The position numbers and the translations under genes are program-made. DNA of 64,000 nucleotides from Herbidospora daliensis. GTDB lineage: Bacteria > Actinomycetota > Actinomycetes > Streptosporangiales > Streptosporangiaceae. The first letter of the stretch is position 1, and every line of letters starts with the position of its first letter. The notes below the pieces were generated by a model, which did no database searches, was not told the DNA's origin, and worked only from the letters and a program-made list of their open reading frames with translations. The DNA is taken from positions 717,353 through 781,352 of the forward strand of contig NZ_BBXF01000003.1 in NCBI RefSeq assembly GCF_001570585.1, written 5' to 3'. Shown piece by piece: positions 12,696 through 28,722 of the stretch.

Positions 12696-13537
12696 TCACG
12701 GGCTCCAGCGTGCGTTTGCCAAGTCGTACAGCTGCTTGACGTAACCGTCGAAGTAAGGGCCGCTCCAGGTGTCGTAGCGGTTGTTCCCGTCGGTGTCTCG
12801 GACCTGACTGATTACCGAGTTCAGGTTGCCCACCCGGGAGATCGGCTCGTCTCCGTCGGAATCGTAGGCCCACAGGAAAGGCGACCCGTCCGCTCCCGGG
12901 GTGAACGAGCAGAGCTGTCCGTTGTAGGGACCCCATCCGACGTGTTCGTTGGCGTTCTGGTAGGGCGGGAGGTAGGCGATCGTCCCGTAGCACCATTTCA
13001 TCGTCCATCCGCTGTACGGCTTGTCGCCGTCGGGATGGGCGTGGTGGGGTAGCCGAAAACGTACCCGCTCAAGCCGCTGGACTGGTTCCAGGCCAAGCCG
13101 TTGCCGCCGACGAAGTCGCCGATGCGCTGGCCGGATGGCTCGCCGGTCTGGCTGTCGAGCTTGGACACGTTCACGAAGCCGTAGTCGGAGTCGGGGTCCT
13201 CGAATACCGCCCAGTCCTCGAACACCCAGCCGACGAAGGGTGACCAGGCGCCGTACGGCCATTGGAGCATGCCGTCGTTGTAGCCGGGGATGAACGCCCA
13301 GTTCTCCCAGACCTCGCCCGTCTCGGGGTCGATGATGCAGTGCCCCGCGGTGGCGACGACGTTCTTGTATTGGCTGGTGACGACCATGCCTGAGCAGTAG
13401 AACCACTCATCGGTCGCCTCGCGGTGGATGAAGATCTTGCCGACGTTGATCGGATATTCCACGTCGGCGAAGGTCGTCACGCCGTTCCCGCCCGGAGGGG
13501 CGATGCCAGCGATGACGCCGGCCGGGCCAAGTAGCAT
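12696..13537 (-). pseudogene. Broken secreted trypsin/V8-like serine protease
   Basis: The first frame reads PINVGKIFIHREATDEWFYC, then VVATAGHCI with the catalytic His, and later DYGFVNVSKLDS and LSGYVFGYPTTP. Near 13035 the frame shifts and the match continues as HPDGDKPYSGWTMKWCYG, then GQLCSFTPGADGSPFLW and NLNSVISQVRD. No signal peptide or pro-region remains at the 5' end. Where chymotrypsin-fold enzymes have G-x-S-G-G-P, this one reads GADGSP, so the nucleophile Ser also appears replaced by Asp. Truncation plus frameshift plus a lost active site all argue for a dead gene. Confidence 0.7.
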
Positions 13538-14306: not shown

Positions 14307-17135
14307 TCAGAACGAGCCTGAGGTCGTGCCTCCCGATCCGCTCGCCGGCGCCGTGAACACCGTGTTCCCGCCCGGCTCCCACGCGTCGGCCGTGTTCGGG
14401 AACCCGGCCTCCTGCCGTTTCACGCACTTCCACTCGACCGAAGCGCCGGGCGGCAGCTTCGCGATGGTCCCCGTCCACGTCGGATAGGAGGTCGGCGACA
14501 GTTTGACCGCGCTCGCCACCGACCACCCCCCGAGCTGCGGGACGTTGCCGACCGCGTAGACCGACTGCCCGGCGGTGGTCGTCCCGTTGGCGCAGCTGAA
14601 CGTCATCGACGACGGCGTCTGCCCGATGGTGAACGCGAAGGTCTTCGCCGTCCCGACGGCCACGGACGCCGACTTGGCCACGATCACGCCGCCGCCCGCG
14701 TTGTACCACCCGCTGGAAGCCGCGTCGAAAGCGGTCTTGGACGCGTGCTGCGTCAGCGCGGACCCGTTCAGTGTCACCGCGCCGGCCTGCGTGTCCGCCA
14801 CCAGTTCCACCACGTTCGACCGCGACGCCGGCGCCCCGGTGTACGTCCCGGACGACGCCGCGACCGTCACCGTGGCGACCGACCCGCTGAGGGACTGGCT
14901 CAGCGCGGTCGTCCGCACCGACCCCGTCTTGTAGCCCGTGGACGCCCCGTCATCCTCGTAGAGGGTGAAGGAACTCGCCGTGGAGGAGGCGTAGACCCGG
15001 GCGATCAGCTCGTTCCGGGTGGAGGCGTCGGTGCGTTTCCCGAGGACGTTCATGGTCTTGTCGTCCACGAACATCTTCGGAATGATCGCCCCGGCCCGAG
15101 CGAACGTCGGCAACCGGAACTCGCCGTTCACCCACAGCGGCCGGTCGTTGAACCACTGCCCGGTGGAGACGAGCTTCTCCCCGGTCGCGTAGTCGTACCA
15201 GGTCCCCGCCGGCAGGTACATGTTCCGCGACCGTTCACCGGCCCCGGCCACGACCCCCACCAGCAGGTCCTTGCCGATCAGCTTCTGGTGGCCCATCTCC
15301 CGGACGGCGGGATCGTTCTGGTACTGGTAGACGAGCGGCGGCACGACCGGCTCGCCGGTCAGGTAGGCCCGGTGCGCCAGCGAGTAGTAGTACGGCGTCA
15401 GTTCATACCGCCGCCGCAGGTTCCCCAGGTTGCTGGCCTCGTCGCCGATCGAGTCGGGTGAGGTCGCCGCGCAGTTGCACAGGTTCTCGGTGTGCGGCCG
15501 GAGCGGCACGTCGAACCAGGCCCCGTTGGCGAACCACTGCGTGTAGAGCTCGTCGAGGTCCGAGTCGAGCATCTCGCGGCGGAAGCCGCCGATGTCGGAG
15601 CCGTAGTAGTCGATGCCGGACATCGACATGTGCATCTGGGCGTTCTGCTGCTGCGCCAGCGCGGTCAGCTTCGAGCCGATGTCGGCCGACCACATCGCCA
15701 CGCCGTGGCGCTGCATGCCGCCCGCGCCCGACCGGGCGAGCATGAACGGCCGCTTCGTGCCGGCCGCGTAGTTGCGGGCGATGCTCTCGGCCCACTTCAG
15801 GTTGTAGACGTTGTGGTAGTCGGCGTGCGCGTGTTTGCCGGGCAGCACCCCGGAGGTCCAGTCGGCGGCGTCGTACATTTCGGGTTCGCCCAGGTCGAGC
15901 CAGTGGCCCAGGATGCCCTGGTCGCTGAGGGCCTGCCGCTTCAGGCCGTGCCAGTAGTCGCCGGCCGCGTTCTGCGTCCAGTCGATCATGCCGCCGCGGC
16001 CCCACCAGTCGTTGGTCGTCAGGTAGGTCGGCGCGCACGACGAACAGCCCGCCCGCACCAGATACCCGCGTGAGGCCATGTCGGCGTGTTCGGTCCGGTT
16101 CCTGCCGATGTACGACTCCTCGATCGTCATCAGCCCCACGCCCTGGTTCGTGGCGTAGTCGGCGATCTTCGTCGACGGGGACGGGAAGTCGCCCGTGTCC
16201 CACGTCAGCGAGCCCATCAGCGTGTTGTCCGACCCGGCCGTCACGCCGCCGAACCACGGCAGGTCGAGCACGAACCCGTCCACGGGGAACTTCGCGGTGC
16301 GCAGCCCGGCCAGCCGGTTGTCGATCTCGGTCCAGTTGTCGTAGCCGAACTCCGACACCCACAGGCCGAACGCCTTCTTCGGCGGCACCGGCGGGCGGCC
16401 GGTCAGCTCCAGGTAGTCCTTGCGCAGGTCGGGCAGGTCGGGGCCGGTCATCGTGTACCAGCGGAGCTGGTCGCCCCACGTGTCGATGGTCCACGGGTCG
16501 CCGCCCAGGTTCCACTCCTGCTTGTAGACCTGGTCGAGGAACAGGCCGTAGTTCAGGTTGGACGCCCCCACCGCGAACAGCACCGGGATCTGGGTGTTCC
16601 CCACGGGGCCGTTGTCGGGGTCCCAGACCATGGCGTTGCCGTAGGTGCCGCCGGGGGAGCGGGTCCGGCCGACCCAGTCGCCGTCGGCGCTGCCGCCGGT
16701 GAAGAACTGCTGGCCGAGCCCGTAGGCGTGCTGGACCGAGCTCTTGGTCACCGAGAGCCCCTTCCACGCCTGCGACAGGTTGCGCGGGCAGGCCTCGTAG
16801 AGCAGCCGGGTGGGGTCGGAGACCTTCACGCAGAGCGTCCCGGCGGTGACCTCCACCTTCATGGCCGCCGTCGTGATGACGTTCCCGACCTGGCTGAACG
16901 ACGTCGGCCCGGTGTAGTCGGTCTTCGCCACCTGCGGCGTCGTGAAGATCGGCGAACCCGTCCCGGGGCTGGTGCCCTGGGCCAGTTCGAAGTGGACGAG
17001 GTCGTCGTCGAGGAACTCGGCGATCAGGTACGTCGACCCGCTGGTGAACTGCACCCGCTGCACGGCGGCCTGGGCGGGCAGGGCGACCAGGAAGCTGCTC
17101 GCCAGCACCGCGAAAACCACGAGAAATCGTTTCAT
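14307..17135 (-). CDS. Secreted GH31 enzyme with C-terminal starch-binding domain; probable 6-alpha-glucosyltransferase
   Basis: A 942-residue exported enzyme (signal MKRFLVVFAVLASSFLVALP, then AQA). The N-terminal beta-sandwich is followed by a GH31 TIM barrel with nucleophile region GILGHWLDLGEPEMYD and acid/base region VAMWSADIGSK, then YGSDIGGF. A proximal beta domain (YLPAGTWYDYATGEKL) precedes a CBM20-like module of about 95 residues (ANGTTTAGQSVYAVGNVPQL, GGWSVASAVKL). Starch binding, secretion and operon position suit the first cycloalternan step, transfer of glucose to an alpha-1,6 position on maltooligosaccharides. Its nucleophile region differs from the Bacillus-type CtsZ as I recall it, so alpha-glucosidase is an alternative. 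Its ATG overlaps the upstream stop (ATGA). Confidence 0.85.
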   Translation of the reverse strand: MKRFLVVFAVLASSFLVALPAQAAVQRVQFTSGSTYLIAEFLDDDLVHFELAQGTSPGTGSPIFTTPQVAKTDYTGPTSFSQVGNVITTAAMKVEVTAGTLCVKVSDPTRLLYEACPRNLSQAWKGLSVTKSSVQHAYGLGQQFFTGGSADGDWVGRTRSPGGTYGNAMVWDPDNGPVGNTQIPVLFAVGASNLNYGLFLDQVYKQEWNLGGDPWTIDTWGDQLRWYTMTGPDLPDLRKDYLELTGRPPVPPKKAFGLWVSEFGYDNWTEIDNRLAGLRTAKFPVDGFVLDLPWFGGVTAGSDNTLMGSLTWDTGDFPSPSTKIADYATNQGVGLMTIEESYIGRNRTEHADMASRGYLVRAGCSSCAPTYLTTNDWWGRGGMIDWTQNAAGDYWHGLKRQALSDQGILGHWLDLGEPEMYDAADWTSGVLPGKHAHADYHNVYNLKWAESIARNYAAGTKRPFMLARSGAGGMQRHGVAMWSADIGSKLTALAQQQNAQMHMSMSGIDYYGSDIGGFRREMLDSDLDELYTQWFANGAWFDVPLRPHTENLCNCAATSPDSIGDEASNLGNLRRRYELTPYYYSLAHRAYLTGEPVVPPLVYQYQNDPAVREMGHQKLIGKDLLVGVVAGAGERSRNMYLPAGTWYDYATGEKLVSTGQWFNDRPLWVNGEFRLPTFARAGAIIPKMFVDDKTMNVLGKRTDASTRNELIARVYASSTASSFTLYEDDGASTGYKTGSVRTTALSQSLSGSVATVTVAASSGTYTGAPASRSNVVELVADTQAGAVTLNGSALTQHASKTAFDAASSGWYNAGGGVIVAKSASVAVGTAKTFAFTIGQTPSSMTFSCANGTTTAGQSVYAVGNVPQLGGWSVASAVKLSPTSYPTWTGTIAKLPPGASVEWKCVKRQEAGFPNTADAWEPGGNTVFTAPASGSGGTTSGSF

Positions 17136-20100
17136 GGCCGCGCCACCACCAGGTTGTCCAGGTTGATGCCGTTCGACGCGTACTCGATCTTGATCGACCG
17201 TGCCCCGGCGGTGAGGCTGGTCGTCAGCGTCGCGGTGCCCCACGTGTCCCAGTTCGCCAGCGCCGGCAGGTTGAGCGTGCCGACGGAGACCCCGTCCACG
17301 TAGACGGTCCGCGTCGAGGCGACCGTCGTCGAGTAGCGGAACTTTAGCTGGTGGCTGCCGGTCGCGTCGGCCCTGACCTGGAAGGTCACCGAGTCGCCGG
17401 AGGAGGCGAAGCCGTCGACGAAACCGGTGCCGGTGTAGCCGGGGTGGTCGGTGTTGGTCGACACGCCGACGCCGGCGCCGAACTCGGCCTCGTAGGCGGC
17501 CTTGTCGACCCCGTTCAGGGTGACCGACCGCGCCGACCCGCTGGCGGCCAGTTTCACGTAGGTGAGCTGCTGCACCGGGTCCCACCACCAGCCCTCCGAC
17601 GCCGACTGCAACGCGGCGAGCGAGGCCCGCGCGGTCGCGCCGGTCACCGACGACGGCTGGGTCGAGGCGACCTGGAGCGTGCTGGTCGTGGTCAGGGCGG
17701 GCACCGAGACGCCGACCGTGTGCGCGGGCCAGTTCTCGGTCGAGGTGACGGTCCGGTTCAGGCCCGCCGAGTCCTCGAAGTAGGAGTACGACGAGGTGCC
17801 CGACGGATAGATGCGGAAGACGAGGTTGGCGTACGAGGAGACGCTGTTCGAGATGTTCCCGCCCAGTTGGTAGGACGCGTTCAGGTTCAGCGGGATGATC
17901 GCCCCGGCCTTGGCGTATACGGGGATCGTGTCGAGCCCGGCGGTGTAGGTCTTGGTGCCGGGGCCGGTGAACCGGCCGCCGTTCCACAGGTCGTACCACT
18001 CACCCGACGGCAGGTAGACGTTCTTCGACGTGGCCCCAGCCGTGGTGATCGGCGCCACGAGGAGCTGCGGCCCGAACATGTACTGCTGGTCGAGCGCGGC
18101 GGCCGTCGAATCGCCGGGGAACGCGAAGCTCATCGCCCGCATCATCGGCACACCGGTCGTCGACGACGACTTGGCCTCGGTGTAGAGGTAGGGGATCAGG
18201 TTCATCCGCACGTTCGCGAACTTCCGGAAGTACGGGATCACGTTCGTGTTCCCGGTGCGCGCCTGCACGTTCCACGGCGTGCGCGCCTCCGAGACGCCGG
18301 GGTTGGCCTTCTCCGAGTGATACTGCATGACCGGCGAGAACACCGCCTGCGCCGCCGAGCGCAGGTAGAGCTCCGCGCTCGGGAAGTCGCCGGTGAACCC
18401 GGCCAGGTCCCACGCGGTGTAGGGCACGCCCGACTGCCCGGCCGACAACTGCGCCCGCACGGCCTCCTGGAAGGCGGGGAACGAGGAGTTCTGGTCGCCG
18501 GCCCAGAAGATCGACGTCGACTGCGCGCCCGCCGTGCCCGCCCGGCTGAAGATCGTGCCGTCGGGCTTCTTGCCCTTGACATAGGTGTTGTACGCCGACA
18601 GGTAGGAGTTCGGGTAGGCGTTGTGCATCTCGTCGCCCTTGCGGCCGTCGGCGAACGACACGTTCCGGCCGAAGATCGCCTCGGAGCCGTCGGTCTTGAA
18701 GCCGTCGATCCCGACGTCGTCCATCAGGTAGTCGCGTTTGCTCATCCACCAGTTGCGCGCGGCGGCCGAGGTGAAGTCGGGCACCATGCTGTCGCCGAAC
18801 CACTGGCCCGTCGGCACCCGGTAGACCCCGCCCGGCTGTGACGCGACGTAGCCCTGCGCCTGGGCGTAGGCCTTGTCGTTCACGTGCTGCTGCGGCGCGG
18901 TCGGCGGGTTGGTGTCGAAGTTCTCCTTGAACACCGGAATCTGCCAGAGGATGACCTTGATGCCCTTGGCGTGGGCGTCGTCGACCATCGCCTTCGGGTC
19001 GCTCCACGCGGTCCCGGCCGGGAACGTCAGATCGCTGAGGGCGAGTTTCCCGCTGCCGGGTTTCGCCGTGTACGTCGCGCCGTGCCACACGTAGAAGGTC
19101 GCCTCGTCGCTCCACTGCTCCAGCACGATCGCCGAGTGCGGGATGTTGTGCGTGGTCGGGTTCGCGAGCTCGGCCGTCACCTCCGACTGGGTGTTCCACT
19201 CGTTGGCCGACATCCAGAGCCCGAACGCCCACTTGGGTGGCAGTTGCGGCCGGCCGGTCACCGCGGTGTAGTCGTCGACGATCTCCGCCGGGGTGCCCGC
19301 GAAGAAGTGGTAGTCGAGCGTCGAGTTCAGCGCGCCGTTCGTGTCGACGGTGAATCCGGCCAGGTCGGTCAGGTGGGTGTTCAGGTTGAAGACGGAGTAG
19401 CGGGTCGAGGGCAGGTAGACGCCGTACCCGGCGGAGTTCAGGAAGAACGGCGTCGACAGGTAGGTGCGCCGCCACGACCCCTGGTCGCGGTACTGGTTGT
19501 AGACGAAGTTGTGCACGTCGGTGCCGCGCTGGTCGAGGCGGTCGTAGCGTTCGCCGAAGCCCTCGAAGCGCTCGCCCGCCGGCGAGAGGAAGTGGTCCTC
19601 GATCTTCGTGATCGTCGAGACGCCGTCGCTGGCCCAGCCGATGTTGCGGAACACCGACGGGTCGTACTGGCGCGTGATCAGGGTGGTGCCGTCGCCCTTG
19701 TAGACCGACAGCCGGTAGGGCGTCTTCTGGATCTTCAGCACCAGCGACGACGTCGTGATCTGCAACGTCGAGGCCGAGTTGACGACCGTGTAGCCCGACA
19801 CGCCGCTGATGTTCAGGCCGCTCCCGGAGGGCGCGATCTGGGTGCGGAACCGGTCGAGGGCCGGGAACGCGAACCGGATCTTCGGCGTGAACGACCCGGC
19901 CGAGTCGCCGGTCGTCACGTCGACGCTGGTGCCGTTGTTCACGTACGACGTCACGTTCGTGACCGTCGACCACGACGTCACCTTGAACGTGAACGGCCCC
20001 ACGCTGCGCTGGCCCGTGCCGTTGACGTCGGCGTTGACGGTGTAGGAGATGGAGTCGCCCCGCACGAACGAGCCCATCGCGATGCGCCAGTAGGTGTTGT

Positions 20101-20395
20101 TCCCCTGGTTGTAGTCCCAGGCGGCGCCGATCGGGGTCTGCGCGACGCCGTTCTTCGTCCAGGTGATCCAGACGGTCTGACCCGGCTCGATCGGCCAGGT
20201 CGTGGCCTTGAGGGTGACGGCCTCCCCGGCCATCGGGTCACGGGGAGCACGTTCGGTCGGCTCGGTGGAGTAGAGGTCGTCGATGCCGGTCGGGTTGTGG
20301 TGCACGCCGCTGAGGGCGGCCGCGGGAAGGGCATGCAACATCGTGGCCAGCAGGGCGAGGACCACGACGGTGACGCCCGAGCGTAACCGGGTCAT
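17132..20395 (-). CDS. ctsY: Secreted GH31 3-alpha-isomaltosyltransferase (CtsY-like)
   Basis: A 1087-residue exported enzyme. After the signal peptide, mature sequence begins GVHHNPTGIDDLYSTEPTER, then APRDPMAGEAVTLKATTWPI, the N-terminal immunoglobulin-like module that I recall from 3-alpha-isomaltosyltransferase of the cycloalternan system. The GH31 barrel has FGERYDRLDQRGTDVHNFVY, the nucleophile segment GIDGFKTDGSEAIFG and the acid/base segment FWAGDQNSSF. It ends in a CBM35-like module (YEAEFGAGVGVSTNTDHPGY to GINLDNLVVARP). Known role: transfers isomaltosyl units to alpha-1,3 positions and cyclises the product to cycloalternan. Start and stop overlap both neighbours by ATGA. Confidence 0.88.
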   Translation of the reverse strand: MTRLRSGVTVVVLALLATMLHALPAAALSGVHHNPTGIDDLYSTEPTERAPRDPMAGEAVTLKATTWPIEPGQTVWITWTKNGVAQTPIGAAWDYNQGNNTYWRIAMGSFVRGDSISYTVNADVNGTGQRSVGPFTFKVTSWSTVTNVTSYVNNGTSVDVTTGDSAGSFTPKIRFAFPALDRFRTQIAPSGSGLNISGVSGYTVVNSASTLQITTSSLVLKIQKTPYRLSVYKGDGTTLITRQYDPSVFRNIGWASDGVSTITKIEDHFLSPAGERFEGFGERYDRLDQRGTDVHNFVYNQYRDQGSWRRTYLSTPFFLNSAGYGVYLPSTRYSVFNLNTHLTDLAGFTVDTNGALNSTLDYHFFAGTPAEIVDDYTAVTGRPQLPPKWAFGLWMSANEWNTQSEVTAELANPTTHNIPHSAIVLEQWSDEATFYVWHGATYTAKPGSGKLALSDLTFPAGTAWSDPKAMVDDAHAKGIKVILWQIPVFKENFDTNPPTAPQQHVNDKAYAQAQGYVASQPGGVYRVPTGQWFGDSMVPDFTSAAARNWWMSKRDYLMDDVGIDGFKTDGSEAIFGRNVSFADGRKGDEMHNAYPNSYLSAYNTYVKGKKPDGTIFSRAGTAGAQSTSIFWAGDQNSSFPAFQEAVRAQLSAGQSGVPYTAWDLAGFTGDFPSAELYLRSAAQAVFSPVMQYHSEKANPGVSEARTPWNVQARTGNTNVIPYFRKFANVRMNLIPYLYTEAKSSSTTGVPMMRAMSFAFPGDSTAAALDQQYMFGPQLLVAPITTAGATSKNVYLPSGEWYDLWNGGRFTGPGTKTYTAGLDTIPVYAKAGAIIPLNLNASYQLGGNISNSVSSYANLVFRIYPSGTSSYSYFEDSAGLNRTVTSTENWPAHTVGVSVPALTTTSTLQVASTQPSSVTGATARASLAALQSASEGWWWDPVQQLTYVKLAASGSARSVTLNGVDKAAYEAEFGAGVGVSTNTDHPGYTGTGFVDGFASSGDSVTFQVRADATGSHQLKFRYSTTVASTRTVYVDGVSVGTLNLPALANWDTWGTATLTTSLTAGARSIKIEYASNGINLDNLVVARP

Positions 20396-22536
20396 GCGAA
20401 CATTCCTTTCAAACGCGGCCAGTGCTCCGAGGCGCAGAGCACCGGAGGACGCTCGATGGGCGCGGGAAGGACGACCTCCCGCCCACCGGTGAGCACCGCG
20501 CCGGTCCACACGTCCACCCACTCGCCCGGAGGCAGGTAGGCGGCGATCTCGGTGGCGCCGGGCGTGGTGACGGGGACGACGAGCAGCGCGTCGCCCAGCT
20601 TGAACTGCAGGGGGTACGACCACAACTCGTGTTCCATGTGGTCGAAGAACAGACCCCGCATGAGCGGCTTGCCGCCGCGGGCCGCCACCGCCGCCTGCTC
20701 GGCCAGGTAGGGCACCAGGCGCTCCCTGAGCTGCGCGAACCGCCGGAAGACCGGGATGACCGTGGCGTCGCCGGTCTGTTCGGCGATGTTCCAGGGCGTG
20801 CGGTCGCGGATCGGCGTGCGGTGGTGGTTGAACTCCGAGTGGTACTGCATGATCGGCATGAACGCCGAGGTCCCGGCCGCGCGCAGGTAGAGCTCGGCGG
20901 TCGGCAGGTCGCCGGAGAACCCGGCCAGGTCCCAGCCCCAGTAGACGATCCCGCACGCCGAGGCGGTGATGCCGGCGCGGATCGACGACGCGAACGCCGT
21001 CCACGTCGAGTCCTCGTCACCGGCCCAGAACACGCCGTGCGGCTGCGAGCCGGTGAAGCCGGCCCGGCTGAAGGTGACCGGGGCCTTCCCGTGCGCCCGC
21101 AGCAGGTCGCCGAAGGCCCGCGCGTAGTGGACGGGGAACAGGCTGTTCCCGTCGTCGCCCCGGCGGCCGTCGGCGTAGCGCAGGTCGTGGCCCCAGGCGT
21201 GCTCGCCGCCGTCGGTCTTGAAGCCGTCGACGCCCAGCTCGGAGACCAGGTAGGCGCGCTTGGCCGTCCACCAGTCACGGACCTCCTGCGACGACAGGTC
21301 GGGCATCAGCGCCAGCGGGAACCACCAGCCCCGGTTCCGGTACGGCCTGCCGTCGGCCTCCCGGACGCCGTAGCCCTTCTCGGCCAGCTGCCGGGCGTCC
21401 ACGGCCGCCTGGTGACGGGGGTGCGGGCGCATCTTCTGCAGCGGGATCTGCCAGAGCAGCACCTTGACGTCGCGGGCGTGCAGCTCGTCGATCATGCCCT
21501 TCGGGTCGGGCCACGGCCCGTCGGCGGGGAAGGCGTAGTCGCTCAGCGTGTGCGGTTCCTCCGACGGCTCGTAGACCGCCCCCCGGAACGCCGTGAACGT
21601 CGTCTCGTCGCTCCACGCCTCGATGACCAGCGCGCCGACCGGGATGTCGTGCTCGCGGTGCCGGTCCATCTCGTGCATGACCCGGGCCTGGGTGTTCCAC
21701 TCGTTGCCGCTGGCCCAGAGCCGGAACACCCACGAGGGCAACTCGGTCGGGTGGCCGACCTCGCCGAGGAAGGCCGCCAGCACGTCGGCGGGCGGCCCGT
21801 CGTAGAAGACGACCTCCAGGTCGTCGCCCGCGACCTCCGCCTCGACGGTCAGCAGGTCACCCTCGGTGGAGTACCAGGTGCGCCGCGACGTGCGGACGTG
21901 GAACCCCCACGGCTCGTCGCCGACGACGAAGGCGAAGGGCATCGGCAGGTACGTCCGGTTCGCCGCCCCCTGCCCCTTGTACTGCTCGAACACGACCGCG
22001 TCGAGATCGTTGCCCCGCTGGTCGACGGCGTTGAACCGCTCCCCGAACCCGACCAGGTGGTCGCCCGGCGCGAGCCGCACCGCGAACCTGACCCGGCGCG
22101 CCCCGTCGGCGTCGGCCAGCTGCTCGACCGACCCCGGCACGACCCGGTCGGCCCCGGCGACGCGGACCTTCCCGGGCGTCCACCGCGCCGCCGACACCTC
22201 GAACCACCGGCTGGTCCGCCCCGGCGCCCGGAACCGGTAGCGGTAGCGGGTCCCGAACGCCAGCGGCCCCGTCGTCACCGTCCACGACCCGCTGGCGGCG
22301 CGGGCCGCCTTGGCCTGGGCGGCGGCCAGATGCCCGCCGTCGGTGACGACCGGCCCCTCGGTGCCGTAGAGGGGCGTCATGGGCAGGTCGGCGCCGTTCC
22401 ACTCGCAGACCACCTCGGCGGCCGACGACCGGACCCGCAGCTCGACCGGCTCACCGTCGAGCGGCAGCACGGGCACCCGCTGGTCCTCCGATTCGGCGTA
22501 GGGGTGGCCGGAGCCGTGGGGACGATGACGGATCAC
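20392..22536 (-). CDS. Cytoplasmic GH31, probable cycloalternan-degrading alpha-isomaltosidase
   Basis: A 714-residue GH31 enzyme without signal peptide, hence intracellular. It resembles the CtsY-like neighbour in the barrel: FGERFNAVDQRGNDLDAVVF, WASGNEWNTQARVMHEMDRH, nucleophile segment GVDGFKTDGGEHAWG and acid/base segment FWAGDEDSTW, but lacks its extra N- and C-terminal modules. A paralogue of an isomaltosyltransferase kept inside the cell next to a GH15 enzyme suits hydrolysis of imported cycloalternan to isomaltose, as described for a Kribbella flavida locus (from memory). The GTG start overlaps the GH15 stop (GTGA). Confidence 0.83.
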   Translation of the reverse strand: MIRHRPHGSGHPYAESEDQRVPVLPLDGEPVELRVRSSAAEVVCEWNGADLPMTPLYGTEGPVVTDGGHLAAAQAKAARAASGSWTVTTGPLAFGTRYRYRFRAPGRTSRWFEVSAARWTPGKVRVAGADRVVPGSVEQLADADGARRVRFAVRLAPGDHLVGFGERFNAVDQRGNDLDAVVFEQYKGQGAANRTYLPMPFAFVVGDEPWGFHVRTSRRTWYSTEGDLLTVEAEVAGDDLEVVFYDGPPADVLAAFLGEVGHPTELPSWVFRLWASGNEWNTQARVMHEMDRHREHDIPVGALVIEAWSDETTFTAFRGAVYEPSEEPHTLSDYAFPADGPWPDPKGMIDELHARDVKVLLWQIPLQKMRPHPRHQAAVDARQLAEKGYGVREADGRPYRNRGWWFPLALMPDLSSQEVRDWWTAKRAYLVSELGVDGFKTDGGEHAWGHDLRYADGRRGDDGNSLFPVHYARAFGDLLRAHGKAPVTFSRAGFTGSQPHGVFWAGDEDSTWTAFASSIRAGITASACGIVYWGWDLAGFSGDLPTAELYLRAAGTSAFMPIMQYHSEFNHHRTPIRDRTPWNIAEQTGDATVIPVFRRFAQLRERLVPYLAEQAAVAARGGKPLMRGLFFDHMEHELWSYPLQFKLGDALLVVPVTTPGATEIAAYLPPGEWVDVWTGAVLTGGREVVLPAPIERPPVLCASEHWPRLKGMFA

Positions 22537-23588
22537 AGTTCGGCCTCCAGCATCAGGTACATCCCGTGTGACCACAGCAGGGGAGTGGCGACCGGGCCCC
22601 AGCGCCGGATCCACTCCTCCTCCCGGTCGGGGAAGAGCAGCACGTCGGAGACCTGCTCGGGCAGGTCGCCGGTCGGACGGGCCTGGGCGGCCATCCAGTC
22701 GAGGTAGCGCCGGGCCTCCTCTGGGCGGCCGGCGGCGGCGTGGTTCAGGCCGAGGAAGCCGGCCAGCAGCACCCACCGGCCGCCGCCGTAGAAGGTGTCG
22801 GCGCGGTAGCGGTGCACCCCGCCCTCGTGGGCGAGCTGCCGCTCGACCTCGGCGACGGTCGCGACGGCCACCGGGTGGTCGGGGGCGTACACGCCGAAGG
22901 GGGCGACGCACGCCAGCAGGCTGGCGTCGACCTCGTCGGAGCCCAGCCACTTGCGCAGGTGGCCCTTGTCCGCGACGCCCTCGGCGGCGATCAGCTCCTC
23001 GATGCCGCCGATCGCCTCCTTGACCTCCGGGTCGGCGACGCCGAGCGAGACGGCGGCGCGCAGCCCGGCGTGGATCGCGCCGAGCGTGGCCACGTGGCGC
23101 TGGTCGACGTGCTCCTCCCACCAGTCGTAACACGGGCTGTCCCAGAACGCCGCCAGGTAGCGGGAGGTCAGCCGGACGGCCTCCATCGGGACGTCGGCGG
23201 AGTGGCGGCGGGCGTGCTCGGCCAGCTGCCACAACCAGGTGCCGTAGCCGTCGAGCTGGTGGTCCCACCACTCGTCGGAGCCGTCGGCGCCGTCGAGGGT
23301 GAACCGGGTCGGCAGCATCTCGCCGGGTGAGAGGGTCGCGTCGTGGCGCCGGGCGATCAGGTCGTCGATGTGCGCGGCGCGCGCGAGGACCACCCGCGCG
23401 CACCACTCGTGGAAGGCGCCGACCGAGTCCTTCTCGCCCGCGCGGGACATGCCTTCGGCGATGAACGCGCCGTCGCGCAGCCACGCGTAGCCCGCGTAGG
23501 CGGAGAAGGTCGGGCAGGCGGGATAGGCCCCCGAGGGCGACTGATTCTCGCGGATCACCCGGACGCTGCGAGACATCAAGTCGATCAT
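22533..23588 (-). CDS. GH15 enzyme, probable isomaltose glucohydrolase
   Basis: A 351-residue cytoplasmic (alpha/alpha)6-barrel protein, short for GH15, which usually has an additional N-terminal beta domain. Seen features: SAYAGYAWLRDGAFIAEGMS near the N-terminus, DHQLDGYGTWLWQLAEH, the general-acid region CYDWWEEHVDQRH, and the general-base region at the C-terminus, REEEWIRRWGPVATPLLWSH. Single-domain GH15 enzymes of this type hydrolyse isomaltose to glucose. Within the operon it would complete breakdown of the imported cyclic tetrasaccharide. It is coupled to the cytoplasmic GH31 by a 4-bp overlap. Confidence 0.82.
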   Translation of the reverse strand: MIDLMSRSVRVIRENQSPSGAYPACPTFSAYAGYAWLRDGAFIAEGMSRAGEKDSVGAFHEWCARVVLARAAHIDDLIARRHDATLSPGEMLPTRFTLDGADGSDEWWDHQLDGYGTWLWQLAEHARRHSADVPMEAVRLTSRYLAAFWDSPCYDWWEEHVDQRHVATLGAIHAGLRAAVSLGVADPEVKEAIGGIEELIAAEGVADKGHLRKWLGSDEVDASLLACVAPFGVYAPDHPVAVATVAEVERQLAHEGGVHRYRADTFYGGGRWVLLAGFLGLNHAAAGRPEEARRYLDWMAAQARPTGDLPEQVSDVLLFPDREEEWIRRWGPVATPLLWSHGMYLMLEAEL

Positions 23589-23600
23589 GCTGGTTCTCTC

Positions 23601-24854
23601 CTAGCCGAGAAGGGCGTCGACCTTGGACGCGGCTTCGGTCAGGGCCTCTTCGACCGACTTGCGGCCGGCCGCGGCCTCGGTGAGCTCCTGGGTGACGGCG
23701 TCCTGCATCTCCTGCTGGCGGGCGATGACCGGCGGCAGCGCGATGCTGTTCAGCGAGTCGAAGACGGCCTGGCGGTTGGCCGGGACGGGGTCCTTCAGGT
23801 AGCCCTGCAGCACCGCCTGGTCGGACACCGGCGGCAGCTCCCACGAGCTGGCGATCCGGGTCGTGGCGGCCACGTCGGAGCTGCTCAGGAACTTGGCCCA
23901 GGTGTACGCCTCACGCGGGTGCTTGGTGGTGGCCGAGGCGGCGACCGAGTTGTGGAACACCGCGCTGGCCTTCTGGCTGTCGCCCGGCTCGACGACGACG
24001 TCCCACGTGAACGGCACGTCCTTCAGGCCGGCGAACTGCCAGATGCCGTTGTGCCACATCGCGAGCTTGCCCGACTTGAACAGGTTGGTGTCGAAGTCGG
24101 CGGTGCCGCCGATCTCGGCCTCGGTCGGCATCGTCTTGCCGACCTTGCCGACCAGCCACTTGGCGGCCTTGACGCCCTGCGGGCTGTCGAACGTCGACTT
24201 GCCGCCGCTCATGAACTCGCCGCCGGCCTGCTTGAGCGCCTTGTAGAACTCGAAGAACGTGACCGGCTGGAAGTCGCCGTACACCCCCTCGGAGGTGAGC
24301 TTCTCGGCGGCGGCCTGCTCGTCCTCCCAGGTCCAGTCGGCGGTCGGCAGCGGGACGCCGGCCTTCTCGAACAGGTCCTTGTTGTAGAGCAGGACGACCG
24401 TGGAGAACGACGCCGGGAGCGCGAACTGCTTGCCGTCGTGCTTGAAGGCGTTCAGCGACTCGGTGGCGTAGCCGGAGGTGTCGGTGTCGCCGCCGGCCGT
24501 GCCGAGGTCGAGCAGGCTGCCCGCGGTGGCGTAGGTGACGAAGTTCTCGTAGTTGAGCTCGAAGGTGTCGGGCGCGGTCTGGCCCGCGATGCTGGTCTGG
24601 AGCTTGGTGAAGTACTGGTCGTAGGGGGCCGTCTCCACCTGCACGTCGACCGTGGGGTTCTCCTTCTCGAACGCCGCCACGATCGTGTCGAGGTCCTTCA
24701 CGTGGTCGGGGGCGGCGGAGAAGGTGAAGTAGCGCAGGGTGACCTTGCCGCCTGCGGCGGGCTCTTCCGTACGGGTCGCCGAGCCCTGGGAGCAGGCGGT
24801 GGCGAGCAGGGCGGTGATCAGGGTCGCCGCGGCGACCCGGGCTGATCCGGCCAT
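23601..24854 (-). CDS. ABC sugar transporter substrate-binding lipoprotein
   Basis: A 417-residue family-1 solute-binding protein. The signal ends in lipobox LATAC, so it is membrane-anchored outside the cell. Typical segments are GKVTLRYFTFSAAPDHVKDL, DTIVAAFEKENPTVDVQVET and the DTFELNYENFVTYATAG block, with the C-terminal AAAGRKSVEEALTEAASKVD. By context it would bind cycloalternan or linear alpha-glucans for the two permeases encoded upstream. No ATPase gene lies in the operon; actinobacterial CUT1 systems commonly share a distant MsiK-type ATPase. Confidence 0.88.
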   Translation of the reverse strand: MAGSARVAAATLITALLATACSQGSATRTEEPAAGGKVTLRYFTFSAAPDHVKDLDTIVAAFEKENPTVDVQVETAPYDQYFTKLQTSIAGQTAPDTFELNYENFVTYATAGSLLDLGTAGGDTDTSGYATESLNAFKHDGKQFALPASFSTVVLLYNKDLFEKAGVPLPTADWTWEDEQAAAEKLTSEGVYGDFQPVTFFEFYKALKQAGGEFMSGGKSTFDSPQGVKAAKWLVGKVGKTMPTEAEIGGTADFDTNLFKSGKLAMWHNGIWQFAGLKDVPFTWDVVVEPGDSQKASAVFHNSVAASATTKHPREAYTWAKFLSSSDVAATTRIASSWELPPVSDQAVLQGYLKDPVPANRQAVFDSLNSIALPPVIARQQEMQDAVTQELTEAAAGRKSVEEALTEAASKVDALLG

Positions 24855-24872
24855 GGGGGGTTCCTTCGGTTG

Positions 24873-25679
24873 TTATTTCAGCCCTGACTGGGCCACGGAC
24901 GCGATGACGTGCTTCTGGGCGAACAGGTAGAGGACGAGGATCGGGACGACGCTGACCACCGACCCGGCCATGACGACGTTCCACTCGGTGGTGAACTGGC
25001 CGTGCAGGTTGGCCAGGCCGAGCGGGAGGGTCATGAACTCGGGCGACCTGATGATCACCAGCGGCCACAGGAAGCTGTTCCAGCTGGCCATGAACCCGAA
25101 GATGGCGAACGTGGCGAGGGCCGGGCGGATCAGCGGCAGCACGACCAGGGCGAAGATCCGGAAGTGCCCCGCGCCGTCGAGCACGGCGGCCTCGTCGAAC
25201 TCCTTCGGCACCTGCCGGACGGCCTGCCGCAGCAGGAACACGCCGAACGCGGAGGCGATCGTCGGGGCCAGCACGGCGAAGTAGGTGTCGGTCAGGTTGA
25301 ACGTCCGCATCTCGATGAACAGCGGCACGACCAGCACCTGGAGCGGCACCATCAGCGTCGCCAGGTAGACGGCGAACAGCGCGCCCCGGCCGGGGAAGGG
25401 CAGCCGGGCGAAGGCGTAGGCCGCCATCGAGCTGGTGACGAGCTGGAACACGGTCGAGGCGACGGCGATCCAGAGGCTGTTGAACATGATCCGCCAGAAC
25501 GGCATGGTCTCCAGCAGCCGTTCGTAGGCGCCGAAGCCCGCGCCTTCGGGGGTGAAGTCGGGCGGGGTCTGCAGCACCGCCCCGGCCGGGGTCAGCGACG
25601 TGATCACCGCCCACGCGAACGGGAACAGCATGATCAGCGCGCCGAGCCCGACGACGACGTACCGGCCTGCTCTAGCCAT
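24873..25679 (-). CDS. ABC sugar permease, MalG type
   Basis: A 268-residue membrane protein with about six helices, beginning GRYVVVGLGALIMLFPFAWA. It carries the EAA loop that docks the ATPase as EAAVLDGAGHFRIFALVVLP. It belongs to the CUT1 carbohydrate family and pairs with the MalF-type permease. Its start overlaps the end of that gene by 8 bp. Confidence 0.9.
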   Translation of the reverse strand: MARAGRYVVVGLGALIMLFPFAWAVITSLTPAGAVLQTPPDFTPEGAGFGAYERLLETMPFWRIMFNSLWIAVASTVFQLVTSSMAAYAFARLPFPGRGALFAVYLATLMVPLQVLVVPLFIEMRTFNLTDTYFAVLAPTIASAFGVFLLRQAVRQVPKEFDEAAVLDGAGHFRIFALVVLPLIRPALATFAIFGFMASWNSFLWPLVIIRSPEFMTLPLGLANLHGQFTTEWNVVMAGSVVSVVPILVLYLFAQKHVIASVAQSGLK

Positions 25680-26601
25680 AGTTCACCCACCGGCGCTGGC
25701 CCCGGACCTGGATCAGTGTGACCACCAGCACGACCGCGAACAGCAGCCACGACAGGGCGGATGCCGCACCGGCGCGGCCGTACTTGAAGGTCAGGTTGTA
25801 GACCTGCTCGACGACGACCTGGGTCGCGCCGGCCGGTCCGCCGCCGGTCATGACGTGGACCTGGTCGAAGACCTGGAACCCGTTGATCAGCGAGATGACG
25901 ACGACGAAGAACGTGCTGGGCGACAGCAGCGGCAGGGTGATGCGGCGGAACCGCTGCCAGGCGTTCGCGCCGTCGACCCGGGCGGCCTCCAGGTACTCGT
26001 TCGGGATCGCCTGCAGGCCCGCCAGCAGGATGATCATCACGAAGCCGAGGTCCTTCCACGCCGAGGCGAGGATGATCGAGGGCATCGCCCAGTCGGGGTC
26101 GGTCCACCACCCGGGGCCTTCGAGGCCGACCAGGCCGATCGCCCAGTTAACGATGCCCGAGGCCGGGTTGAGCAGCCACTTCCACAGCAGCGCGACGACC
26201 ACCCACGACGTGACGACGGGCAGGAAGTAGATCGCCCGGAACAGGTCGCGGCCCTTCATCGCCCGGTTGAGCAGCATCGCCAGGCCGAGGCCGCCCGCGT
26301 AGACGAGCGGCAGGTAACCGGCGATGAAGTAGAGCGTGTGCCCGAACGCGGCCCGGGTCTCCTCGCTGGACAGCAGGTCGGCGTAGTTGTCGAGGCCGAC
26401 CCACTTCATCGGCGTGATCAGGTTCCACTCGTGCAGCGACGTCCACAACGACCCGGCCATGGGGATCAGGGTGAACAGCAGCAGCGGGACCGCGCTGGGC
26501 AGCAGGAAGACGGCGACGGTGAGGGCGTAGCGGAGACGCTTCCGCGGCGGGCGGATCGGCTGCTTGACGCTCGCGGCCGGCGGCGTCTCGGTGAGGGTCA
26601 C
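25672..26601 (-). CDS. ABC sugar permease, MalF type
   Basis: A 309-residue membrane protein, first helix LTVAVFLLPSAVPLLLFTLI, with a cytoplasmic basic N-terminus (PPRKRLRYA). The EAA loop reads EAARVDGANAWQRFRRITLP, followed by FQVFDQVHVMTGGGPAGAT, a typical MalF/UgpA periplasmic-loop motif. It is translationally coupled to the ROK regulator upstream (ATGA overlap at 26598-26601), so transport and control genes share one message. Confidence 0.9.
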   Translation of the reverse strand: MTLTETPPAASVKQPIRPPRKRLRYALTVAVFLLPSAVPLLLFTLIPMAGSLWTSLHEWNLITPMKWVGLDNYADLLSSEETRAAFGHTLYFIAGYLPLVYAGGLGLAMLLNRAMKGRDLFRAIYFLPVVTSWVVVALLWKWLLNPASGIVNWAIGLVGLEGPGWWTDPDWAMPSIILASAWKDLGFVMIILLAGLQAIPNEYLEAARVDGANAWQRFRRITLPLLSPSTFFVVVISLINGFQVFDQVHVMTGGGPAGATQVVVEQVYNLTFKYGRAGAASALSWLLFAVVLVVTLIQVRGQRRWVNYG

Positions 26602-27779
26602 GGGGTCGCCCCTATCAGCCGGGCCCGCACCATCCGGCCCTGCTCGCCCGCCGCGCCCTCGGTGTCGAACGGGGTGGCGAGCACCAGCGCGGCCGCGCCC
26701 TGGGCCCAGGAGGTGTCGTCCCAGCCCTCGACCTCGATCTCGATGTCGCGGCGGCCCGGCATGAGCTGGCGGCGGACCGCCGCGTCGAAGCCGGCGCGCC
26801 AGAACTCCCAGTGGGCGGTGCCCTCGCCCAGAACCACGACCACCTCGGGGTCGACGACGTTTATCAACCCGGCGGTCGCCCGGCCCAGGACCGCGCCGGC
26901 CTCGGCGAAGACCGCGCGGGCGGTCGCGTCGGAGGCCGCCAGGGCGCCCAAATCGTCGGCCGTCGCCACGGCGAGCCCTCGGGCGCGGGCCGCGGCCACC
27001 AGCCCGGCCGCGCCGACGACCGCCTCCAGGCAGCCGGACGCCCCGCAGCCGCAGACAGGGCCGTCGACGGCGACCGGCACGTGCCCGAACTCGCCCGCGC
27101 CGCCGCGCGCCCCCCGGTAGACCCGGCCGTCGGCGACGATCGCGGCGCCGACGCCCCGGCCGATCGTCAGGACGAGGAAGTCGCGGTGGGTGCGGCCCCG
27201 GCCGTAGAGGCGCTCGGCCACCGCCAGGGCGTTGACGTCGTTCTCCAGCAGGACGGGGAGCTTGAGGCGGCGGCGCAGCCGGTCGCCCACGGGCATGGCC
27301 TGCCAGCCCAGCGTGGGGGCGTTGCAGGTGCCGACGGCCTGGTCGTCGACGCTGCCGGGCACGCAGACCCCGACGCCCAGCAGCGGCGGCACCTTGCCGA
27401 GCACGTCGGCGACGGCCTCGGCCAGGTCGCCGAGCGCGTCGGGGGAGGAGGGGTCGAAGGGGCTCTCCCAGGAGCCCAGGACCTCGCCGTCGAGGCGGAC
27501 CTCGACGATGACCAGGTGCTCGGCCGTGACCTTCACCCCGAGGGCCCGGCCCGCCGTGCCGGCGAGCCCCAGGCGCTGGGCGGGCCGGCCGCCGCGCGAC
27601 GGCTGGAGGTCGAGCTCCTCCAGCATGCCCGCCGCCATGAGCGCCTTGGTGAGCTGGGTGACCGTCGCGGGGGAGAGGTCCAGCTCCTTGGCGATCTCGG
27701 TGCGGCTGAGCGGCCCGACCGTGCCGAGCAGGGCCAGGATCGCCGTCCGCGTGAGATCGCCGCGATCGGTCGCAGCCAT
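26598..27779 (-). CDS. ROK-family transcriptional regulator of the cycloalternan-type operon
   Basis: About 393 residues. An N-terminal winged helix (GPLSRTEIAKELDLSPATVT, QLTKALMAAGMLEE) precedes a ROK sugar-kinase-like domain with LGVKVTAEHLVIVEV, GAGEFGHVPV and the zinc site CGCGASGCLE. Such proteins repress sugar operons until a sugar or sugar phosphate binds. It is the first gene of the operon it presumably controls, so it should be autoregulated; a palindrome lies just upstream. MAATDRGDL is taken as the start because the 17 upstream codons overlap that palindrome and are not conserved-looking. Confidence 0.87.
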   Translation of the reverse strand: MAATDRGDLTRTAILALLGTVGPLSRTEIAKELDLSPATVTQLTKALMAAGMLEELDLQPSRGGRPAQRLGLAGTAGRALGVKVTAEHLVIVEVRLDGEVLGSWESPFDPSSPDALGDLAEAVADVLGKVPPLLGVGVCVPGSVDDQAVGTCNAPTLGWQAMPVGDRLRRRLKLPVLLENDVNALAVAERLYGRGRTHRDFLVLTIGRGVGAAIVADGRVYRGARGGAGEFGHVPVAVDGPVCGCGASGCLEAVVGAAGLVAAARARGLAVATADDLGALAASDATARAVFAEAGAVLGRATAGLINVVDPEVVVVLGEGTAHWEFWRAGFDAAVRRQLMPGRRDIEIEVEGWDDTSWAQGAAALVLATPFDTEGAAGEQGRMVRARLIGATP

Positions 27780-27786
27780 CGGGCTC

Positions 27787-27810
27787 ACTTTCTTTATTGG
27801 TAAAGTTAGT
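27787..27810. promoter_or_regulatory. Candidate ROK operator
   Basis: CTTTATTGGTAAAG (27792-27805) is an inverted repeat with arms CTTTA/TAAAG, and flanking ACT and AGT extend the symmetry to 24 bp. It is AT-rich in an otherwise GC-rich region and lies 8 bp ahead of the ROK gene's ATG, where it would overlap the promoter or leader of the whole eight-gene operon. Confidence 0.55.
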
Positions 27811-27867
27811 CCCGAAATATGGCTGCTCACGTGGGCACTGTCAAGGGTCCGAAACCAGATCGAAACC

Positions 27868-28722
27868 TCAGTGCCGGGCGCACGGGCGGACCACCGCGAT
27901 CGGGCAGCGCGCGTGCCGGAGCACCCGGCGGCTGACCGAGCCCATGACCATCGATCCGGCCCGGCCCCGGCCGTGCGAGCCGACCACGACGAGGTCGGCC
28001 TCCCGTGACGCGTCGACCAGCGCCTCGACCGGATGCGCCGAGCGCAGGTCGTCGAAGACCGGCAGTTGCGGGTAGCGGGTGCGGAAGGTGGCGAGCTGGC
28101 TGGTCGCCACGGCCCGCTGGCCCGCCCGCACCGCGTTCAGGTCGAACTCGATCTCGGGGGCGTAGGGGTGGGTGGGCAGCGACCAGGCGTGCAGGGCCCT
28201 GATCTCGGCGCCGTGCAGGTCGGCCTGCTCGAAGGCGTAGGAGATGGGGGCGGGGCAGTCGGCCGTGTCGTCGAGGCCGACCACGACCTCGCCCGCGCGC
28301 CGGCCGGGCGGTTCGCGCACGATGATCACCGGGCCGGTCGCGTGGCCCGCCACCTGCATGCTGACCGAGCCGAGGATGCTGCCGGCGGTCCGGCCCATGC
28401 CCCGGCTGCCCAGCACCAGCCCGGCCGACTCGTCGGCCAGGCGGCGCAGCACGTCGGCCGGGCGGCCCTCGACGTTCTCCAGGCGCATCGGCAGGCCCGG
28501 ACGCCGGTCGCGCGCGGCCTTCTCGGCCTCACTCATGATCCGGCAGGCCACGTCGGCCAGCGCCGCGTCGAGCTCGGGGGAGTCGGCGAGCTCGTAGGGG
28601 GATCGGTCGACGACGTGGACGATACGCAGCCAGGCGCCCCGGCGGGCGGCGTCGTCGGCGGCCCATTCGACGGCGGCGAGCGACGTCGCCGAACCGTCGA
28701 CACCGACTGTTACATCCCTCAT
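27868..28722 (-). CDS. Universal stress protein, two tandem USP domains
   Basis: A 284-residue protein with two UspA domains. Domain 1 begins [20 protein letters not shown] and has the nucleotide motif [15 protein letters not shown]; domain 2 begins [16 protein letters not shown] and has [15 protein letters not shown], both of the G-2x-G-9x-G(S/T) ATP-binding form. Tandem USPs of this kind belong to the DosR dormancy regulon in mycobacteria. Here the gene is divergent from a DevR-like response regulator with DosR-like boxes in between, so hypoxia- or redox-linked control is likely. Confidence 0.92.

Follow-up and report, generated by a model that had tools for sequence, protein, structure and literature searches.

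We analysed a 64,000-nucleotide stretch of the Herbidospora daliensis genome (hereafter, the window) and found that positions 14307-27779 carry eight tightly packed, operon-like minus-strand genes which, by their families, make up a complete cycloalternan operon. The pathway is already known and the one-operon layout is common; the fresh points are a putative operator and a split between producers and consumers of the sugar. We consider it very probable, judging from the sequence, that the operon converts starch to cycloalternan, imports the ring and degrades it to glucose under the control of a ROK repressor. Outside the cell, a GH31 enzyme with a CBM20 end would move glucose to the 6-OH of the maltodextrin non-reducing end, and a second, CAFE-like GH31 enzyme would transfer the isomaltosyl unit so formed to a 3-OH, closing the cyclic tetrasaccharide. 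The ring would be imported by a binding protein and two permeases, driven by an MsiK-like ATPase encoded elsewhere; a cytoplasmic GH31 enzyme would cut its alpha-1,3 bonds to give isomaltose, and a GH15 enzyme would split isomaltose to glucose. The ROK repressor would sit over the transcription start and be released by a pathway sugar, and we propose that all steps are switched together by this release.

The original prediction described an eight-gene minus-strand cluster, and all eight genes were present, with the families claimed and with CBM_35 and CBM_20 at the ends of the two secreted enzymes. Read from the ROK gene, the order is a ROK-family regulator (26598-27779, 393 aa, ATG start), an ABC sugar permease of the MalF/UgpA type (25672-26601, 309 aa, GTG start), a second of the MalG/UgpE type (24873-25679, 268 aa; both by Pfam and NCBIfam), a solute-binding protein (23601-24854, 417 aa), a predicted GH15 isomaltose glucohydrolase (22533-23588, 351 aa), a predicted cytoplasmic GH31 cycloalternan-degrading enzyme or alpha-1,3-isomaltosidase (20392-22536, 714 aa, GTG start), a predicted secreted GH31 3-alpha-isomaltosyltransferase, CtsY (17132-20395, 1087 aa), and a secreted GH31 protein with DUF5110 and CBM20 that we assign as the 6-alpha-glucosyltransferase CtsZ (14307-17135, 942 aa). 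In the same direction, neighbouring genes overlap by 4 and then 8 bases at the first two of the seven junctions, are 18 and 12 bases apart at the next two, and overlap by 4 bases at each of the last three. Between 13400 and 28200 we found one sigma-70-like site, which lies before the ROK gene on the minus strand (shuffles: mean 0.4, sd 0.6) and consists of a -35 hexamer TTGACA (27839-27844) and a -10 hexamer CATATT (27816-27821) with a spacer of 17. Terminator-like sites in the same interval numbered six, against a shuffle mean of 4.9, and just one was on the minus strand, within a permease gene. Because the junctions are tight, the promoter-like site is alone and the one minus-strand terminator-like site is inside a gene, the simplest reading is that the eight genes form a single transcript. 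Chance does not explain the gene order, which was found again in other genera. On the same strand, a universal stress protein gene (27868-28722) stops 88 bases short of the ROK start and delimits the promoter region. On the other side of the operon, two overlapping minus-strand frames (12998-13537 and 12696-13406, together 12696-13537) resemble the halves of one secreted trypsin-like protease, one carrying AGHC and the second GSP, as though a frameshift lay near 13000-13050; neither half had a Pfam match at E 0.001.

We compared the 1087-residue enzyme with solved proteins. The results showed that Lmo2446 was the best match (E 0, 1129 bits, residues 25-1085), the next kind reaching 454 bits, and one Lmo2446 structure entry carries the name cycloalternan-forming enzyme. 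Pfam placed Lmo2446-like_N (1.1e-34) in this protein and CBM_35 (4.1e-12) at its end, which bears out the CtsY layout proposed earlier; its best solved relative is not an alpha-glucosidase or xylosidase. The near end-to-end homology, the N-terminal module and the CBM35 fit a CtsY or cycloalternan-forming enzyme, for which transfer and cyclisation are predicted. The cluster could instead be a general starch or alpha-glucan operon in which the secreted GH31 proteins are ordinary hydrolases of the alpha-glucosidase or alpha-xylosidase type and no ring is made. Generic NCBIfam alpha-xylosidase and alpha-glucosidase models do match all three GH31 proteins, and the CBM20 enzyme is about equally distant from several GH31 specificities; however, those NCBIfam matches fall far under the cut-offs, YicI matches CtsY at 202 bits as against 1129 for Lmo2446, and both the binding protein and the GH15 enzyme, described below, have specific relatives. 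We therefore regard a ring-free operon as very improbable, and the cycloalternan reading is kept in what follows.

For the 942-residue enzyme, Pfam identified GH31 and, at its end, CBM_20. Residues D414 and D485 were invariant among 16 sequences, and we read them as catalytic and the N-terminus as a signal peptide, so that the protein appears to combine a GH31 catalytic domain with two conserved Asp residues, secretion and a starch-binding domain. No close solved relative of this enzyme was found: the best matches were 6jr6 (205 bits), the 4-alpha-glucosyltransferase Agd31B (199 bits) and 5x7o (176 bits). The search output labels 5x7o an alpha-glucosidase; we take it to be the Paenibacillus 6-alpha-glucosyltransferase. 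An Arthrobacter relative (L124) had Agd31B as its best solved match, and the predicted structure of the window's enzyme (pLDDT 47.7) was too poor for use. We assigned it as the 6-alpha-glucosyltransferase because all 30 named genomes with the ring-forming enzyme also carry it (see below) and none was detected in the 43 that lack that enzyme; the basis of the assignment is thus association and not a close characterised relative. Among the glycoside hydrolase assignments of the original prediction, those of CtsY, the cytoplasmic GH31 and the GH15 held by homology, whereas that of the 6-alpha-glucosyltransferase holds by association. Irregular copies of the production genes were seen in relatives. 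A genome of the same genus carries a second, partial CBM20 GH31 copy (G297:C9:157314-158759; residues 461-942, 95% identical) on the other strand, roughly 6 kb away from the operon. The ctsY match of Nonomuraea jiangxiensis (L087, 12429-15628) is split into two pieces in different frames, and a Bailinhaonella locus (L098, 15500-17971) has a stop inside the ctsZ stretch; both are possible frameshifts or assembly errors.

Homology does not settle which transfer reaction the CBM20 enzyme catalyses, and a 4-alpha-glucosyltransferase is among its nearest solved relatives; the secreted pair could accordingly use another donor or yield mostly linear oligosaccharides with alternating alpha-1,6 and alpha-1,3 bonds, which the importer would take along with the ring. 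The binding protein and the degrading enzyme argue against this. The best solved relative of the binding protein, whose N-terminus we read as lipobox-like, was Lmo0181 (5f7v, E 3.1e-93), ahead of the next match (4.2e-29) by 211 bits, and the ligand of Lmo0181 is given as cycloalternan in PMC8603345 and PMC11205737, so that transport of cycloalternan is predicted for this importer. The cytoplasmic GH31 protein contains AIMA-like_N (1,3-alpha-isomaltosidase-like, 1.6e-27) by Pfam, and its solved matches include 5f7s (E 6.7e-240) and 5i0g (E 9e-239). 5I0G is TpCADE, a member of the cycloalternan-degrading enzyme family, which PMC9061262 describes as cycloalternan-specific. Taken with the AIMA-like domain, this homology points to the same role for the window's enzyme. 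Another donor or a mostly linear product is therefore improbable, though slightly less so than an operon that makes no ring, and we continue with cycloalternan as the product. The strongest solved match of the cytoplasmic GH31 protein was 5x3i (E 4.2e-284).

We take 5x3i to be the Kribbella enzyme, and the GH15 protein likewise matched a Kribbella structure, the isomaltose glucohydrolase of Kribbella flavida (5z3a, E 1.9e-115, residues 4-351). It retains both catalytic Glu motifs, WWEEHV and GDLPEQV, and the position of KfIG Ala358, a residue named in PMC12446779; this full-length homology predicts isomaltose glucohydrolase activity. No signal peptide was seen on either the cytoplasmic GH31 or the GH15 protein. 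Four proteins (CtsY, the cytoplasmic GH31, the GH15 and the binding protein) therefore have specific solved relatives, which supports the earlier identification of a cycloalternan pathway at the family level. Pfam found no ABC ATPase among the eight operon genes, a lack that the original prediction did not mention. An MsiK-like ATPase is encoded elsewhere in the genome (G000:C1:884163-885353), the only one of 140 matches above the model's cut-off, and is likely to be the shared motor of this importer. By our reading of the open reading frames, its gene (L062, 1468-2802) stands alone beside a divergent LacI-like regulator.

We examined the distribution of these genes in two sets of genomes. The first, the class sample, consists of 296 genomes taken evenly from the class. 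AIMA-like_N was detected at E 0.001 in 24 of them and exceeded the model's cut-off in 21; the other three (G034, G121 and G247) were left out of the counts. The six-gene block from the ROK regulator through both permeases, the binding protein and the GH15 to the cytoplasmic GH31 was present in 20 of 20 class regions fetched besides the window. CtsY and CtsZ were both found in five of the 21 module genomes (G000, G275, G102, G183 and G200), while 16 were without production enzymes. A strong Lmo2446-like_N match (120-125 bits) occurred in those five alone among the 296 genomes, and no maker without the import and breakdown module was seen among them.

The named set comprised the best 80 of 253 relatives of the cytoplasmic GH31 protein in a contig scan; it leans toward relatives of the window because it was ranked by likeness to a window-led alignment. 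The six-gene block was found in 73 of the 80 loci; six of the others were cut by a contig end, and the seventh, from Nakamurella endophytica (L136), was the sole full-length named locus in which no GH15 match separates the binding protein from the GH31. For the production genes we counted the 73 loci with at least 7 kb downstream and left out the seven with less. CtsY and CtsZ lay directly downstream, in the window's order, in 26 of these 73. Among the remaining 47 genomes, four had a strong Lmo2446-like_N match (112-120 bits), other matches reaching at most 35.5 bits, and the same four carried CtsZ at our cut-off of E 1e-150 or better. Thus both genes were adjacent in 26 genomes, elsewhere in four and not found in 43, a figure that is an upper bound because draft assemblies can hide genes, and in no genome was one found alone. 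In six of the 47 loci the six-gene module was incomplete, five because the contig ends there and one, L136, for want of the GH15 match. The weak Lmo2446-like_N matches (up to 35.5 bits), of which 15 in the named genomes exceeded the cut-off of 29.7 and one was in the class sample (G124), were dropped because, where coordinates were compared, they overlie the N-terminal part of the cytoplasmic GH31; the exception, from the L097 genome, is on another contig and is unexplained.

All eight genes occurred in order in seven of seven Herbidospora genomes. The one-operon form was also frequent in Nonomuraea and was present in Streptosporangium, Microtetraspora, Bailinhaonella, Phytoactinopolyspora halotolerans and an Arthrobacter. 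The original prediction had singled out the presence of all parts in one transcript as notable, a view that the same layout in 26 of 73 named loci does not sustain.

The regulator matched Pfam ROK (1.6e-50), MarR (1.6e-6) and HTH_24 (4.2e-6), giving a winged HTH and a ROK domain, and is probably a repressor relieved by a pathway sugar. A start at 27810 was rejected in favour of the ATG at 27779, which start conservation makes most likely. We aligned 74 upstream regions, from the window and the 73 named loci. TTGAC was present upstream of the ROK gene in 68 of the 74 (shuffles: mean 10.4, maximum 17), and a palindrome conserved across families lay before the gene. In the window it is the 24-bp imperfect palindrome ACTAACTTTACCAATAAAGAAAGT (27787-27810, minus strand); the 24-bp consensus is ACTAAnTTTAnTnCTnAAGAAAGT, with a correlation of 0.73 with its own reverse complement, and in most regions it begins 26-74 bases before the position aligned to ROK residue 1. 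The short form TTTAN5RAANNAAG occurred in 60 of the 74 regions, against a mean of 0.02 and a maximum of 1 in 200 shuffles; L073 is among the 14 regions without it owing to a wrong start taken. When a model was built from 41 loci of families other than Streptosporangiaceae, assigned from record names, 27787 came first among the 127,954 positions of the window, both strands counted, at 30-32 bits; the best site not overlapping it scored 7.8. Each of the seven Herbidospora genomes contains a single exact copy, and none has a further site at 3 mismatches or fewer, whereas a control with the pattern read backwards matched twice in the seven. We regard this palindrome as a putative ROK operator over the expected transcription start.

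The palindrome was also found where the production genes are separate from the module. In two Phytoactinopolyspora genomes, at L178 (genome of L102) and L179 (G102, assigned to the genus by its label), ctsYZ are remote from the module; the palindrome precedes the ctsY match by 48 and 32 bases, respectively, and outscores every other site in 16 kb. In Haloechinothrix, Actinocrispum and a Kribbella (L180-L182), a second ROK gene stands ahead of ctsYZ, which run divergently from the module, and two overlapping palindromes lie in between. These loci are independent evidence for a single repressor governing both production and breakdown. The claim that production, import and breakdown share one apparent regulator agrees with these sites and with the single promoter-like site and conserved palindrome of the window.

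The sugar could be, as the original prediction held, a private store that the maker alone can use, and could give the maker a competitive edge. All five class-sample producers also carry the import and breakdown module, and the idea is in print, in PMC7676653, for the related sugar CMM of Arthrobacter globiformis. By gene content, however, the utilisation genes are not restricted to makers: 16 of the 21 class-sample module genomes were without production enzymes, these enzymes were found nowhere in 43 of the 47 named genomes without adjacent ctsYZ, and the non-producers include Nonomuraea L074 and L080, from a genus with many producers. A private store thus seems unlikely, and the claim that competitors cannot use the sugar is not supported by gene content. 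We lean, by a modest degree, toward a shared currency, in which the module and its ROK operator are a common, perhaps ancestral, unit across actinobacteria, most carriers are scavengers without synthesis and makers are also eaters. The ctsYZ pair would then be detachable, within the same ROK regulon, at the operon end, as a divergent neighbour or at a remote locus with its own operator. Producer and non-producer relatives, such as those within Nonomuraea, are ready pairs for the question of a private or shared cyclic sugar, and the predicted operator and regulon are testable. Our analysis extends the known starch-to-cyclic-sugar pathway, by gene content, to Herbidospora and Nonomuraea; no title on either genus was among the matches listed in a literature search for cycloalternan, and its absence from print is unproven.

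Among known systems, Kribbella flavida is alike in content: there Tagami et al. (2016) reportedly described a regulator, a sugar transporter, a GH31 alpha-1,3-isomaltosidase and a GH15 isomaltose glucohydrolase in one cluster. Its 6-alpha-glucosyltransferase and 3-alpha-isomaltosyltransferase are said to make the ring, with two CNN (cycloalternan) gene clusters, as opposed to the one operon of Herbidospora. Another Kribbella (L134, L182) also differs: its ctsYZ lie next to the module but run divergently, following a second ROK gene. Listeria monocytogenes, with its CAFE Lmo2446, Lmo0181 and a degrading enzyme, has the ring-forming and binding protein families in common with Herbidospora, but it encodes production and uptake at different loci, and Lmo0182 (5hop, E 1.6e-6) bears a weak likeness to the window's GH15. 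The cmmA-G cluster of Arthrobacter globiformis M6, as described in PMC7676653, joins secreted ring formation, ring-specific import and intracellular breakdown, and the transporter genes named there are a binding protein and two membrane subunits. It resembles Herbidospora in combining making, import and digestion in one cluster, whereas its cyclic maltosyl-maltose is a different ring, with alpha-1,4 and alpha-1,6 bonds and GH13 enzymes.
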